Source of the DNA: Singulisphaera sp.
GTDB lineage: Bacteria; Planctomycetota; Planctomycetia; Isosphaerales; Isosphaeraceae
NCBI GenBank assembly: GCA_027451445.1
Contig: DAIDJG010000068.1
Coordinates: 1 to 61,428 of the forward strand
DNA length: 61,428 bases
Reading direction: 5' to 3'
Shown: positions 11,414-16,171 of the stretch, one piece after another
How the letters are laid out: the number at the start of each line of letters is the position of its first letter
How positions within the stretch are numbered: the stretch's first letter is position 1
Translations under genes and position numbers: made by a program
The notes under the pieces: generated by a model
Told to the model about the DNA's origin: nothing
The model's database searches: none
The model's input: the letters and a program-made list of their open reading frames with translations, nothing else

Positions 11414-12277
11414 ATGCGGTTGGCAGGCAAACGGCGCTTTGAGTGGTTGCTATCGAGTCACTTCCATGAGGGGAAGGAGCATCAGGTCCGCCTCCAGGGT
11501 GACTCGGTGGATGTGGTGGAAATGGGGACGGGTGAACCGATCGTTCTTGTGCCGGGGCTGGCGGGGGGTTGGAAACTATTAGCTCCCCTCGCTCACCTGT
11601 TGGCGAAGCGATACCGGGTTTTTGCGTGTGGTCTGCGCGGAGACCGATTTCCGTTGGGGATGAGCCTTGCGTCTGACCTGGGGGATCACGCCCACGACCT
11701 TGCCGAGTTGATTGAGCGGCTTGGTCTGGAACGGCCGGCTGTCCTGGGCGTCTCATTTGGCGGGGCGGTGGCCTTGGAGTTCGCGGTCGAATATCCCCAA
11801 CGCCTGAGTGCTCTCACCGTGTTTGGGGCTGAGGCACGTTTTCGAGCGACGCTCGGAACGACGATCGCCAGACGGGTTCTGGAACGGTTTCCCTTACCGA
11901 GCGACAACGGCTTCGTGAACCAGTTTTTCAACCTCCTTCACGGTGGAAAGCCAGAGCCCGGACCGCTTCCCGATTTCGTCGTGGAGCGGTGCTGGGAAAC
12001 CGATCAAAGCATCGTGGCGCAGCGGATCGGGTTGCTCGATGCGTTCGATGTCCGCGATCGCCTCTGGCGGATCGATGTTCCGACGCTCGTGCTTGGGGGG
12101 ACTCGCGACATCGTGGTGCCGCCGGCACGGCAGCGCGCGTTAGCCGAGGCGATCAGCGGCGCACGGTTTGAGGCGTTGGAAGGGGCGGGACACATCGGCT
12201 TCCTGACTCACCGCCTCGAGGTCGCACGCCGCGTCAATCGGCTCTTGCGGGTCGCACGCCACTCGACGTGCGAGTGA
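11414..12277 (+). CDS. Alpha/beta hydrolase
   Basis: A 287-residue alpha/beta-fold hydrolase. Seen: the oxyanion-side strand IVLVPGLAGGWKLLAPLA, the nucleophile elbow GVSFGG (Ser), the acid GGTRDIVVPP (Asp), and the C-terminal GAGHIGF (His). These form a complete catalytic triad. The substrate (ester, lactone, haloalkane or other) cannot be told from sequence. The start at 11414 follows cgggggattcc. It is divergent from the sigma-54 activator and is followed by an intrinsic terminator. Confidence 0.85.
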   Translation: MRLAGKRRFEWLLSSHFHEGKEHQVRLQGDSVDVVEMGTGEPIVLVPGLAGGWKLLAPLAHLLAKRYRVFACGLRGDRFPLGMSLASDLGDHAHDLAELIERLGLERPAVLGVSFGGAVALEFAVEYPQRLSALTVFGAEARFRATLGTTIARRVLERFPLPSDNGFVNQFFNLLHGGKPEPGPLPDFVVERCWETDQSIVAQRIGLLDAFDVRDRLWRIDVPTLVLGGTRDIVVPPARQRALAEAISGARFEALEGAGHIGFLTHRLEVARRVNRLLRVARHSTCE

Positions 12278-12311
12278 ACTGACGGCGCCGCGAAACAGAT
12301 CGATGATTCCA

Positions 12312-12350
12312 GGGGACCAGGAGCCACTCGCCTGGTCTCCTTTCTTTTTT
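12312..12350 (+). terminator. Intrinsic terminator after the alpha/beta hydrolase
   Basis: GGGGACCAGG (12312-12321) pairs with CCTGGTCTCC (12331-12340), with one G-T pair, around a 9-nt loop, followed by tttctttttt (12341-12350). This is a textbook Rho-independent terminator on the plus strand. Confidence 0.85.
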
Positions 12351-12403
12351 GTTCGCACAAACTGTTGACGGCGTCTGTCTTCCAACCCGGAGAAGCATTG
12401 GTA

Positions 12404-13024
12404 ATGCCGGAACGTTTGGAGTTGCTCAGTCCTCTCCTGGTTCGCGCTCTGCGGTGCGCGTCCTACTGGCACCGTGGGCAACTCCGGAAAGGATCGGCGA
12501 TACCTTATGTCGAGCACGTGATGGGGGTCGCCTTGATCCTCGATCGCTCGGGCTTCGGCGAGAACGTCGTCATTGCCGGCCTGCTGCACGACGCGGTCGA
12601 GGACACCGAAGCGACACTTGCCGAGATTGAGGGACTCTTTGGGTCTGAAGTCGCCGGAATTGTGAGTGATTGCTCCGAGCAGAAGACGGATAGCCTGGGA
12701 AACAAGCGGCCGTGGATTGATCGCAAACGCGATCATCTCGCCGTCCTCGTTGAGGCGGGTTTGGCGAGCCGCGCGGTGATCCTGGCCGACAAGCTGAACA
12801 ACCTGATCAGTATCGAGATGGACCTTCGAGACAAGAAGCCCATCTGGAGTCAGTTCAACGCGGACCGAGAGCAGGTTCTCTGGTATCACCGCACGATGAT
12901 CGACCAACTCGATGGCGACGAGCCGCGTTTGGGACAGCTCGCTTCGGAGGCTCGCCGCGTTCTCAACGCCATTGAAGCGCTCGAAGGCGGCGTGGACCCG
13001 CTCAGCGCGGAGAACCCGCTTTGA
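12404..13024 (+). CDS. HD-domain phosphohydrolase, SpoT-hydrolase-like
   Basis: A 206-residue stand-alone HD protein. Motifs match the (p)ppGpp-hydrolase branch: HRGQLRKGSAIPYVEHVMGVA (first His), then LLHDAVEDTEAT (HD plus ED), and ADKLNNL (the downstream Asp). There is no synthetase or TGS domain, so this may be a small alarmone hydrolase or another nucleotide phosphohydrolase; the choice is not resolvable here. ATG 12404 has ggagaag about nine bases upstream; the frame opens at TTG 12365. Confidence 0.82.
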   Translation: MPERLELLSPLLVRALRCASYWHRGQLRKGSAIPYVEHVMGVALILDRSGFGENVVIAGLLHDAVEDTEATLAEIEGLFGSEVAGIVSDCSEQKTDSLGNKRPWIDRKRDHLAVLVEAGLASRAVILADKLNNLISIEMDLRDKKPIWSQFNADREQVLWYHRTMIDQLDGDEPRLGQLASEARRVLNAIEALEGGVDPLSAENPL

Positions 13025-13131
13025 ACAAGCCGATACCGCTGATTGCGAATCAGACGGCTGTCTCAAGCCGCAAAATCGGTCGTAGCCTACCCACGAGCGC
13101 AGGAAAATCGGCAAACCTTCCCACGAGACGG
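13025..13131. other. Start of the 728-base gap upstream of aroF
   Basis: The non-coding gap runs from 13025 to 13752. This first part has no feature I can name; the structured transcript candidate follows it. Confidence 0.5.
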
Positions 13132-13159
13132 TTGATCGCGGCTTCCGGGTTGGTATAGT
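13132..13159 (+). promoter_or_regulatory. Sigma-70 promoter for the leader/ncRNA
   Basis: TTGATC (13132-13137), a 16-base spacer, then TATAGT (13154-13159). This gives four and five matches to the two consensus hexamers. Transcription would start near 13166. Confidence 0.65.
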
Positions 13160-13293
13160 GAAAGTGTCGGTGAGGTCGCACACACCCAACCGACTTGGGT
13201 CGTACGGACGTGGTACGACGGGCTAAAGCTCGCTTCCACTCGAGGCTGGACTCCCGTGGGACCGAGGTGGCTTAACAAGAGGGAGGTGATCGC

Positions 13294-13326
13294 GTGTGTA
13301 GTGACAACCAGGGGCGGCTCGCCTAA
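13294..13326 (+). CDS. Possible 10-codon leader peptide
   Basis: GTG 13294 follows gggaggtgat at ideal spacing, one of the strongest Shine-Dalgarno sequences in the window. The frame encodes MCSDNQGRLA and stops at 13324-13326. It lies inside the structured leader. It has no Phe, Tyr or Trp codons, so classic ribosome-stalling control of aromatic synthesis is unlikely. It may instead be a ribosome or regulator binding site without a functional peptide. Confidence 0.35.
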   Translation: MCSDNQGRLA

Positions 13327-13604
13327 CGGCAGCCGACGGGTTGCCCGTCGGGCAAGCCGCATACCAGTCTGATTTTTGCGCACGGCCAGGTCCGGCTTGT
13401 TCGGACCTGGCCTGCTTTACCTGCGAACTTGACGGCCGATTACGAGGATTCCGAAAACACGTGAGCCGGTCCTTCGTCCTCCCTGGCACTGGGTCGTATT
13501 GTGGCTGGTGGTCCCTGTACTTTACGGGGTACTCCACAGGTTGCCGGGCCTTGGGCGGAGTTTAGTCAGGATCGACCGCTCTTCTCTTCCAGAGAAAACA
13601 CACC

Positions 13605-13651
13605 AAAGGCTCCGGGACCTGAGTTAGGGTTCCGGGGCCTTTGTTTGTTTT
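13605..13651 (+). terminator. Intrinsic terminator upstream of aroF
   Basis: AAAGGCTCCGGGACC (13605-13619) pairs with GGTTCCGGGGCCTTT (13628-13642): 15 bp with two G-T pairs and an 8-nt loop, followed by gtttgtttt. It ends the leader RNA about 100 bases before the aroF start. Confidence 0.88.
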
Positions 13652-13752
13652 AGGACCGCGGGTGCGGTTCTTACGTTGGGGCAGGGTTACTATTCGTTCG
13701 CATCGAACTCCCCGGGGCGTGACCCAAATTCGTTTGTGGAGGGCGGGGTACC

Positions 13753-14766
13753 GTGATTGTTGTGATGAAGGCTGACGCGACGGCGGAGCAAGTGGAGCAC
13801 GCAGCCGCACACATCACCTCGTTGGGCCTGTCGCCCCAGGTGATCCGAGGCGCACACCAAACCGTGATCGCCGCGATCGGCGAGGAACGGCCGGGTCTCA
13901 TCGAAACATTGGAAGCGGGTGCAGGCGTCGAGAAAGTCTTGCCCATCATGGCCCCCTACAAACGGGCCTCATCCGAGTTGAAGAGCGAACGTACGGTCGT
14001 TCGGGCACGCGGGCTCGAAGTGGGCGGCACGAAGATCGCGGTGATCGCTGGACCGTGTTCGGTCGAGAACGAGGCCCAGATCGTGGCTATCGCGCGCAAG
14101 CTCAAGGAGCGCGGAGCGACGGGCCTGCGAGGGGGAGCCTTCAAGCCCAGGACCAGCCCATACAGCTTCCAGGGCCACAAGGAAGAAGGTCTCAAGATGC
14201 TCGCCGCAGCGCGGGACGAAACTGGACTGGCGATCGTCACCGAAGTCATGGCGCCGGAACACGTTCCCATGGTCGCCGAGTACGCCGACGTGCTTCAGAT
14301 CGGCGCGCGAAATATGCAGAATTACCAGCTTCTTCAGGCTGTGGGCGACTCGGGCAAACCCGCCCTGTTGAAGCGCGGGATGAGCGCGACGATCGACGAG
14401 TTTTTGTTGGCCGCGGAGTACATCCTGGACCGGGGCAACCCCAACGTCATGCTCTGCGAGCGCGGGGTTCGTACATTCGAGGAACACACACGCTTTACGC
14501 TGCCGCTCGCGACAGTGCCCTACCTGCACGAGAAGAGCCACCTCCCCGTGGTGGTGGATCCGTCCCACGGCACGGGGAAAGCTCGATTGGTCCCTCCGAT
14601 GTGTAAGGCGTCGGTCGCGGCCGGGGCCGATGCGCTGATCATCGAAGTGCACGAGGATCCCGAGCACGCGATGAGCGACGGTTCCCAGACCATCACACCG
14701 GCGGTCTTCGCCCAGGTGATGCAGCAATGCCGGCGTGTTGCTGAGGCGGTCGACCGGACGATGTGA
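13753..14766 (+). CDS. aroF: 3-deoxy-7-phosphoheptulonate synthase with N-terminal regulatory domain
   Basis: DAHP synthase condenses PEP and erythrose-4-phosphate, the first step of the shikimate pathway. The 337-residue protein starts with a ferredoxin-like (FL/ACT-type) domain (about 1-70) as in Thermotoga and Bacillus type I-beta enzymes, where it mediates feedback inhibition by aromatic amino acids. The barrel follows: [47 protein letters not shown], and [11 protein letters not shown], carrying the metal and PEP ligands. The GTG at 13753 is the start ([10 protein letters not shown]). It follows the structured leader and terminator, so expression may be controlled by termination. Confidence 0.93.
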
Positions 14767-14794
14767 TCCGGAACCGTTGGGAATTGAGTTCGGT

Positions 14795-14834
14795 GGGGTG
14801 GGCGTGAATTGCACCCGACTGCGAAGCCCACCCC
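14795..14834. terminator. Stem-loop between aroF and the DUF1501 gene
   Basis: GGGGTGGGC (14795-14803) pairs perfectly with GCCCACCCC (14826-14834), 22-nt loop, between converging genes. There is no T run. Confidence 0.4.
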
Positions 14835-14887
14835 CGTCGAACCTCGACGTTTTCAGTGACACGTTGCTTGCATCTGCGTCATCTCAC

Positions 14888-16171
14888 TCAGCCCACGAGC
14901 TCCTTGATCGGCGTTGCACCCTTCTCGACGATCCGTATTGGGCGTCCGATCGGCGTGGGGTTCTCTTTGGTGTAGTCCACGCCGAGGATTGAGCAGACCG
15001 TCGCGAGAAAATCGAGACCCGAGATCGGTCGTTCGATCACCTCGGCGCCCTCCTTGTCGGTCTTGCCGATCACCTGCCCCCCCTTGATGCCGCCGCCGAA
15101 GAGGGCCAGGCTCCAGGCGCGCGGATAATGGTTGCGTCCCGGAGTGCCCTGGTTCGCGGTGATCTTGGGGGTTCGGCCAAACTCACCCATCCAGATAACA
15201 AGCGTCGAGTCGAGACGCCCGGAGGACTCGAGCTCAGTGATCAGTCTCGCGATCGGCGCATCAATCGTGCCAGAGAGTTTCTTGACCCTCGGGAAGTTGT
15301 CCTTGTGCGTGTCCCATCCGTTGGAGAATACCTCAACGAACGGTACACCAGCCTCGTTAAGACGTCTGGCGAGGAGGCACCCTCGCCCGAAGGCGCTCTC
15401 GCCATACGCCGCGCGGACGGAGGCGTGTTCACGCTCGATATCGAACGCCTGGGCTTCCTTCGACCGGAGCAGCGCGACGGTCCGCTGATAGGTCGTGAGG
15501 TGGTCATGCCCTGCTTGACTCGTAGCCGTGCGTAGCAAACCCCGCTCCATGTCTTCGAGCAGTCCAAGCCGTTCACCGAACCGCAAGCCATCAACTGGTG
15601 GTCGCAGATTGGCGACGCCCTTGGCGGCATCCTCAATGATGAGCGGCTGATGCCGGACTCCCAGGAAACCTGCCCCGTAGCCGAACTTGCCGCCGACCGA
15701 AACGAAATTCGGTAGCGCGACGTCCGCCTTTCCCAACTCGGCTGAAGCGATGGCGCCGAGGCTTGGATGAACCAGTCCACCCGAGCCCTCCCGATAGCCT
15801 GTATGCATATAGTAGCGGGCTGGACCGTGTGCCCCTTGACTTGTGCTCATGCCCCGGAGCAGCACCCCATGGTGCATCTGCTTGGCGATTTGCGGCAGAT
15901 GCTCACTGATTTCGATTCCGGGCACGGAGGTCGCGATCGGCTTGAATTCGCCGGCGTCTTTCGTCCCGGGCTTGAGGTCGAGAGTGTCCTTGTGGCTCGC
16001 GCCTCCTTCCATCCAGAGGAGGATGCACGACTTGGGCTTCACCCCTGTTTCTGCCGCGCGGGTCGCAAGCACGTTGAGCCAGCCCGAGAGCGAAGTGAAC
16101 GACGCACCTGCCGCCGCGAATCGGAGCAGTTCGCGCCTGGAGCACGCGAGAGAGCGGTGAACATTGGCCAT
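14888..16171 (-). CDS. DUF1501 protein, Tat-exported
   Basis: A 427-residue sulfatase-like DUF1501 protein, a family very expanded in Planctomycetota and related to alkaline-phosphatase-fold enzymes; function unproven. The N terminus is a twin-arginine leader (SRRELLRFAAAGASFTSLSGW). Internal marks: CILLWMEGGASHKDTLDLKP, GWDTHKDNF, LVIWMGEFGRTPKI, and GRNHYPRAWSLALFGGG. ATG 16171 is chosen because aaggag lies eight bases upstream; ATG 16195 is in frame but weaker. It is the second gene of an operon with the DUF1549/1553 gene, which ends about 20 bases upstream if the frameshift there is read through. Confidence 0.92.
   Translation of the reverse strand: MANVHRSLACSRRELLRFAAAGASFTSLSGWLNVLATRAAETGVKPKSCILLWMEGGASHKDTLDLKPGTKDAGEFKPIATSVPGIEISEHLPQIAKQMHHGVLLRGMSTSQGAHGPARYYMHTGYREGSGGLVHPSLGAIASAELGKADVALPNFVSVGGKFGYGAGFLGVRHQPLIIEDAAKGVANLRPPVDGLRFGERLGLLEDMERGLLRTATSQAGHDHLTTYQRTVALLRSKEAQAFDIEREHASVRAAYGESAFGRGCLLARRLNEAGVPFVEVFSNGWDTHKDNFPRVKKLSGTIDAPIARLITELESSGRLDSTLVIWMGEFGRTPKITANQGTPGRNHYPRAWSLALFGGGIKGGQVIGKTDKEGAEVIERPISGLDFLATVCSILGVDYTKENPTPIGRPIRIVEKGATPIKELVG

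Follow-up and report, generated by a model that had tools for sequence, protein, structure and literature searches.

Two adjacent RNA elements upstream of aroF in a planctomycete genome: a widespread structured RNA with a mini-ORF and a putative aromatic amino acid attenuator

The window analyzed here is a stretch of planctomycete DNA of 61,428 nucleotides. It contains aroF (13753–14766), which encodes a DAHP synthase with a ferredoxin-like domain (PF00793, PF18152, and NF006421). The region 13132–13752, immediately upstream, consists of two adjacent RNA elements on one strand rather than a single element. Element 1, a structured RNA gene that spans 13132 to about 13420, has a promoter and an extended Shine-Dalgarno sequence and carries a 10-codon ORF. 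Element 2 (13461–13651) is composed of a leader ORF, an antiterminator, and a terminator ahead of aroF. The features of both elements and aroF itself are found on the + strand. The original prediction had proposed either a small RNA or a riboswitch or attenuator for aromatic amino acid synthesis. The small RNA and the aromatic attenuator both appear to be present, side by side, and the aromatic amino acid riboswitch was discarded. Two features had been missed: a second short ORF (13461–13565) bearing a cluster of aromatic codons, and the extent of the widely conserved part, which is limited throughout the family of the window to about 13191–13362 and stops well 5' of the terminator. An HD-domain gene (PF13328) is located upstream of element 1 at 12365–13024, and an HD-domain homologue occurs upstream of the element 1 RNA in 18 of 36 loci.

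The sigma-70-type promoter predicted at 13132–13159 (TTGATC, 16 nt, TATAGT, with TG ahead of the −10 hexamer) was recovered as the sole match of a scan of 12000–15500, for which shuffled sequences gave a mean of 0.3. Its register is preserved across the alignment of 35 family loci. The predicted richness in hairpins is reflected in the fold of 13166–13652, with an energy of −226.5 kcal/mol versus −196.1 ± 6.9 kcal/mol for shuffled sequences (z = −4.42; 0 of 100 shuffles equal). The 5' hairpin P1 (13166–13194, GTCGGT with ACCGAC) was assigned from the fold and the alignment. P2 (13199–13219), a hairpin of 7 bp whose loop contains ACGU, shows two-sided changes both in a broad set of 41 sequences and in 34 sequences of the family. 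The inner part of P4 (13236–13259) is a hairpin containing CGAGGCTGGACTC that exhibits covariation in the family alignment; it is near-invariant within the family and poorly conserved beyond it. The extended Shine-Dalgarno sequence follows at 13279–13291, and its segment GGAGGTGATC (13282–13291) is complementary to the 3' end of 16S rRNA. The predicted pairing of a Shine-Dalgarno sequence with a 10-codon ORF is present, with GGAGG at 13282–13286, GTG at 13294, the translation MCSDNQGRLA, and TAA at 13324–13326; this mini-ORF (13294–13326) has a counterpart in 107 of 107 representatives.

Three further stems with two-sided changes lie behind or across the stop codon. Hairpin A (13328–13345) starts 1 nt 3' of the stop codon and pairs strand S1 (13328–13334) with S2 (13339–13345). 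Hairpin B (13341–13355) pairs the S2 side (13341–13346) with S3 (13350–13355) and excludes hairpin A. P5 (13314–13360) joins the 3' end of the mini-ORF (13314–13319) to 13355–13360. A strong hairpin at 13384–13412, followed only by TGCTTTA, sits where the RNA terminator of relatives lies, which suggests positional homology. The poor T-run implies that element 1 of the window may simply form the beginning of the aroF mRNA.

The terminator predicted ahead of the DAHP synthase gene is real (13604–13651; stem 13604–13643 plus a T-run, 109 nt 5' of aroF), but it appears to belong to a separate leader-peptide attenuator, distinct from the RNA with the 10-codon ORF. The leader ORF MSRSFVLPGTGSYCGWWSLYFTGYSTGCRALGGV (13461–13565) is an open frame that begins with GTG 13461, the likely start codon, and ends with TAG; AGGA is positioned 12 nt upstream of the start. 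The frame contains the cluster Trp-Trp-Ser-Leu-Tyr-Phe-Thr-Gly-Tyr (WWSLYFTGY), and an aromatic cluster is also found in relatives. The putative antiterminator strand (13537–13552) pairs with the 5' arm of the terminator in a duplex of −24.5 kcal/mol and in the fold calculated without the 3' arm.

The leaders of the family were compared for these features. A strict WW..F[TPK] frame was detected in 25 of 35 leaders and a wider pattern in 29, for a combined 30; element 2 was recognized by neither pattern at loci L008, L029, and L033–L035. At least five aromatic residues per 9-residue window were found in 21 of the 35 leaders versus 3.4% of shuffles. In 28 leaders the terminator begins 25–51 nt behind the stop of the leader ORF, and an antiterminator strand that pairs with the terminator 5' arm begins 7–15 nt behind the aromatic codons. 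No terminator was found by the same rule in the L027 leader. The mean for the antiterminator duplex in the 28 leaders is −20.5, versus −18.9 ± 0.39 for cross-genome pairs and −14.6 for shuffled sequences; the best of 200 cross-genome permutations is −20.3. The matched duplexes barely surpass the cross-genome ones because the antiterminator strand is itself conserved. Among the aroF loci outside the family, aromatic-rich frames are present in L074, L120, L160, and L189; they are less marked in L072 and doubtful in L112 and L113.

Element 2 combines an ORF rich in codons for the products of the pathway with a terminator and a mutually exclusive antiterminator, as is characteristic of attenuators, and it is very probably one. 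Its anatomy is that of a classical aromatic attenuator that would regulate aroF. When charged Trp, Tyr, or Phe tRNA is scarce, the ribosome would stall at WWSLYFTGY and leave 13537–13552 free to pair with the terminator 5' arm, so that transcription could continue into aroF. When aromatic amino acids are ample, the ribosome would proceed to the stop codon and mask 13537–13552, and the terminator would form. The element 1 promoter may also serve aroF, being the sole promoter candidate found in the window.

The distribution of element 1 was determined by sequence, covariance model, and pattern searches. The DNA at 13132–13660 has matches in 37 of 59 genomes: 35 of the 37 genomes of the window's family, counting its own genome, and 2 others with short matches; the same RNA is also present on a Tautonia sociabilis contig. 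Covariance model R1 was built from 34 sequences of the window's family and model R2 from 41 sequences, 5 of them from outside the class, and both were used to search genomes of Planctomycetota. R1 matches 42 of the 45 genomes of the family (the three listed misses are 64–77% complete) and 189 of 248 genomes of the class, mostly with one copy each. R2 matches 248 of 297 class genomes, again mostly in single copy, and 220 of the 261 good genomes; the listed misses among the 49 class genomes lacking a match include families f6, f7, and f9. In the phylum sample, R2 matches 130 of 392 genomes at E ≤ 0.1, a threshold at which chance matches are expected. At E ≤ 0.001, R2 matches 57 genomes outside the class (counted by hand among the 392 phylum genomes; five of the genomes supplied sequences to R2).

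With R1, 38 of 246 genomes of the phylum sample were matched at E ≤ 0.1, including 24 outside the class, from which 20 of 20 loci read carry the Shine-Dalgarno sequence and the mini-ORF. A pattern scan of named genomes returned at least 120 matching stretches. Among the 80 matches listed, 74 are planctomycete and one (L170) is from an uncultured bacterium, and all 75 have the mini-ORF; the other 5 look like chance matches in long open frames. Because the sequences are related, these counts are not independent of one another. The existence of an RNA family containing element 1 is practically certain. Two loci have unusual copies. In the aroF leader of L023 (genome G005), the full copy of the RNA (L023:2122–2283) is preceded by another of lower score (L023:1924–2082, 24.6 bits). 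Adjacent R1 matches at L242:1904–1992 and 1993–2115, in a genome outside the class, are perhaps a tandem or a split match.

The stems are kept in relatives, with covariation. In the alignment of 41 sequences, two-sided changes were observed in 7 of 7 pairs of P2, 6 of 7 pairs of hairpin A, 4 of 5 pairs of hairpin B, and 3 of 5 pairs of P5. For P2 and A together, 92.7% of the cells are paired and 13 of 14 pairs are changed on both sides; for P2, B, and P5 the values are 91.0% and 14 of 17. None of 500 shuffles is as high for either stem set, and versions slid along the alignment drop to 28–55%, a control that favors the structure since it was read off the same 41 sequences. These sequences were obtained by omitting 8 named loci, drawing 54 at random from the rest of the 107 representatives, and dropping 13 by hand. 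The mean energies of A, B, and P5, calculated for 103 of the 107 representatives with no hand choice, are each below those of all 100 cross-genome permutations. The GGT/ACC pairs across the mini-ORF never vary and were excluded from the covariation evidence, and alignments A2 and A3 omit L023, which carries an insertion. RNAalifold returned only one small helix, near −8.5, for the broad alignment of 54 sequences, which counts against a single shared fold. As shown by sequence comparison, hairpins A and B behind the stop codon both covary and are mutually exclusive.

Two smaller features accompany these stems. A hairpin with at least 6 pairs around an ACGN loop lies 5' of the Shine-Dalgarno sequence in 82 of 107 representatives versus 8.1 in shuffles, and a GRCGG motif is located 3–16 nt (median 11) past the first base of the stop codon in 103 of 107. 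RNA variants without GRCGG behind the stop were noted at L078, L100, L101, and L104.

All 107 non-redundant representatives have an ORF of 8 or more codons behind the Shine-Dalgarno sequence, and a strict mini-ORF rule is satisfied by 101 of 107 versus a shuffled mean of 6.9 and maximum of 15; a start-like triplet was a selection criterion for the loci from the pattern scan and not for those derived from the models. Across the RNA family the mini-ORF is 8–18 codons long. It starts with GTG (80 representatives), ATG (14), or TTG (13) and stops with TAA (40), TGA (37), or TAG (30). The spacing between the Shine-Dalgarno sequence and the start codon is 7 in 75 of the 107; the start of L158 was taken out of register in this survey. 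Comparison thus shows that start, frame, and stop are kept. Gaps divisible by three account for 333 of 564 within the ORF, 569 of 2596 upstream, and 162 of 2091 downstream, as counted over pairs at ≥72% identity with L158 omitted, where pair counts are not independent. Looser alignments gave no such signal (2995 of 8866 ORF gaps divisible by three).

Variation is similar at the three codon positions, with 0.87, 0.77, and 0.65 bits at positions 1, 2, and 3 for 27 ORFs of 10 codons and 0.99, 1.04, and 1.05 bits for 33 ORFs of 13 codons. Selection on the peptide is therefore not indicated, there being no excess of third-position change, and the P5 stem constrains part of the mini-ORF. Equal variation fits a role for the position of the ribosome rather than for the peptide. 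Attenuation by amino acid starvation through the 10-codon ORF was rejected, as the copy of the window has no aromatic codon; a Trp codon is present in the mini-ORF of some relatives.

Promoter-like sites with 9 of 12 matches were identified upstream of 41 of 107 representatives, versus 6.4 expected; a control region gave 0 of 106. Outside the class this level is reached in just 2 of 17 loci, and a stricter pattern is found in 9 of 37 class loci. Of the 107 representatives, 84 have a terminator-like site of −18 kcal/mol or lower within 220 nt, versus 3 after shuffling. Taken over the representatives, element 1 combines a putative promoter of its own, a putative terminator, and a kept ORF, the attributes of a dual-function or translated small RNA.

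In its plan, element 1 starts with a series of 5' hairpins, after which come a very strong ribosome-binding site and the mini-ORF. The distance from the stop codon to S1 would place S1 under a terminating ribosome, and translation would then favor hairpin B. A ribosome at the stop codon of the mini-ORF would cover S1 and leave S2 to pair with S3 (hairpin B), and without the ribosome S1 would pair with S2 (hairpin A). Such ribosome gating is, on balance, the favored mechanism for element 1. The RNA would signal, or itself influence, the initiation or termination of translation, and in most families it would do so in trans. More tentatively, element 1 could be a phylum-wide leader-peptide switch that is detached from any downstream gene, senses free ribosomes or the termination state, and signals in trans; almost perfect complementarity to the 16S 3' end would load the ribosome, and this loading and termination on the mini-ORF would flip the RNA between its two folds.

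The match to 16S rRNA may also be read as a decoy or clamp for its 3' end, serving 30S titration, storage, or assembly, with a mini-ORF that merely tunes the RNA. The 16S-complementary stretch of the Shine-Dalgarno sequence is longer in many relatives than in the window. The sequence GAAAGGAGGTGATC is complementary to what we take to be the 16S 3' end in genomes G013, G020, G021, and G039, all other than that of the window. Searches with AAAGGAGGTGRTC yielded 17 matches in 8 genomes, of which 10 are 16S antisense and 4 are the element 1 RNA. In addition, GATCACC, which resembles the 16S end and could pair with the Shine-Dalgarno sequence, is found downstream in 30 of 103 representatives versus 1.9 expected, in a count for which the anchor was misplaced inside the ORF at 20 loci; the copy of the window is not among these 30. 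However, a decoy has no need of the start, open frame, and stop that every one of the 107 representatives retains, and the 13-base Shine-Dalgarno motif is absent from the genome of the window, where the Shine-Dalgarno sequence departs upstream of GGAGG. This explanation is considered unlikely. As a separate observation, AAAGGAGGTGATCCTAGTC occurs with similar flanks at two places in G042 (L264 and L268) and is unlike both the element 1 RNA and the 16S antisense of other genomes.

Element 1 might instead be just the 5' part of the aroF leader, acting as a riboswitch or second attenuator that controls aroF. Adjacency to aroF was judged by tblastn and clustering, since longest-ORF gene calls overlook aroF in L074. 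In the window's family, all 35 loci with a core match have aroF downstream in the same orientation, 82 to 690 nt behind the core and as close as 82–86 nt in L033–L035; a weak extra locus, L036, is without aroF. It is also downstream in 7 loci outside the family (L072, L074, L112, L113, L120, L160, and L189). The gap from the terminator to aroF is just 36–46 nt in L007, L023, and L033–L035, which leaves little space for a further promoter.

Against this reading, aroF adjoins the RNA in only 2 of the 37 loci of other families that were read by tblastn from 147 out-of-family matches, and terminator-like sites lie close behind the RNA in most loci. ORF clustering over 167 loci, some represented through two collections, placed aroF at 51 (including L125, at 3.6 kb), and no other cluster has a constant position and strand from family to family. 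Element 1 looks stand-alone because of the difference between 35 of 35 in the window's family and 2 of 37 elsewhere, and a role limited to the aroF leader is judged quite improbable. A riboswitch for aroF was rejected since the RNA is mostly away from aroF outside the window's family; the placement of a riboswitch domain before functionally related genes is not seen across families. That the mini-ORF works through its peptide, whether in trans or by arresting the ribosome, is very doubtful: recurring endings such as NQRWLA and SQRGG and the frame-keeping gaps speak for it, but third-position change is not in excess and the changes track the P5 stem, as in QRGG to QRGS where CCACC becomes GCTTCC.

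Taken together, it is probable that element 1 is a member of a ribosome-gated small RNA family and element 2 a classical attenuator, an assessment that rests mainly on the existence of the RNA family and on element 2 being an attenuator. If correct, Planctomycetota possess a small RNA that occurs in 248 of 297 genomes of the class, gave no Rfam 15 match in the searches made, and has as its constant features a ribosome-binding site, a mini-ORF, and a fold governed by ribosome position. It would offer a directly testable route into translation sensing in this phylum. The attenuator is of an ordinary kind, yet it would provide a specific and testable control of aromatic synthesis in the window's family.

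To our knowledge, few regulatory RNAs are known from Planctomycetota. The original prediction recognized no RNA family here, and none reaches its Rfam gathering score anywhere in the window, where the best weak match is CC2171. The element 1 RNA is likewise unmatched at the gathering cutoff in 20 loci of relatives, where only four tRNA matches and one int-alpA match were obtained, all away from it. CC2171 (RF01867), a Caulobacter small RNA, resembles element 1 in that an extended Shine-Dalgarno sequence precedes GTG in its consensus; it was rejected at 22.2 bits versus a cutoff of 75, and its 7 weak matches across the whole genome include none above the cutoff and none at the element 1 locus.

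The rnTrpL/peTrpL of Sinorhizobium is reportedly a leader-type RNA that contains a short ORF and can also function at a distance from its own gene. Element 1 would resemble rnTrpL/peTrpL, the subject of PMC7298713, in these respects; it differs in that no constant gene follows it across the families read and in lacking a run of codons for a single amino acid. Rhodopirellula-1, a candidate motif from 2010, is listed as an ambiguous, probably cis-regulatory RNA of Planctomycetes and Proteobacteria, in a table row that carries no Rfam number (PMC2864571). Compared through this table entry, it shares the Planctomycetes with element 1 and may be the same RNA. Attenuators of the trp type with leader peptides have been predicted in Actinobacteria (PMC1262725). 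In the relevant passages of that account they share with element 2 the repeated Trp codons, an antiterminator strand behind them, a GC-rich terminator with a T-run, and a downstream biosynthetic gene; aro genes are not named there. Element 2 differs in its gene (aroF), its planctomycete host, and its mixed Trp/Tyr/Phe cluster. The titles and abstract openings of the literature surveyed gave no account of the element 1 RNA or of a planctomycete aroF attenuator.

Finally, tmRNA and 6S RNA resemble element 1 as widespread small RNAs, and tmRNA also has a short ORF. Both were rejected as its identity and differ from it as separate genes of the same genomes, with tmRNA above the cutoff elsewhere in 10 of 13 genomes and 6S RNA in 7 of 13. 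A further 6S RNA candidate was detected at G000:C167:10803–10965 with a score just below the cutoff (40.2 versus 46.4 bits).
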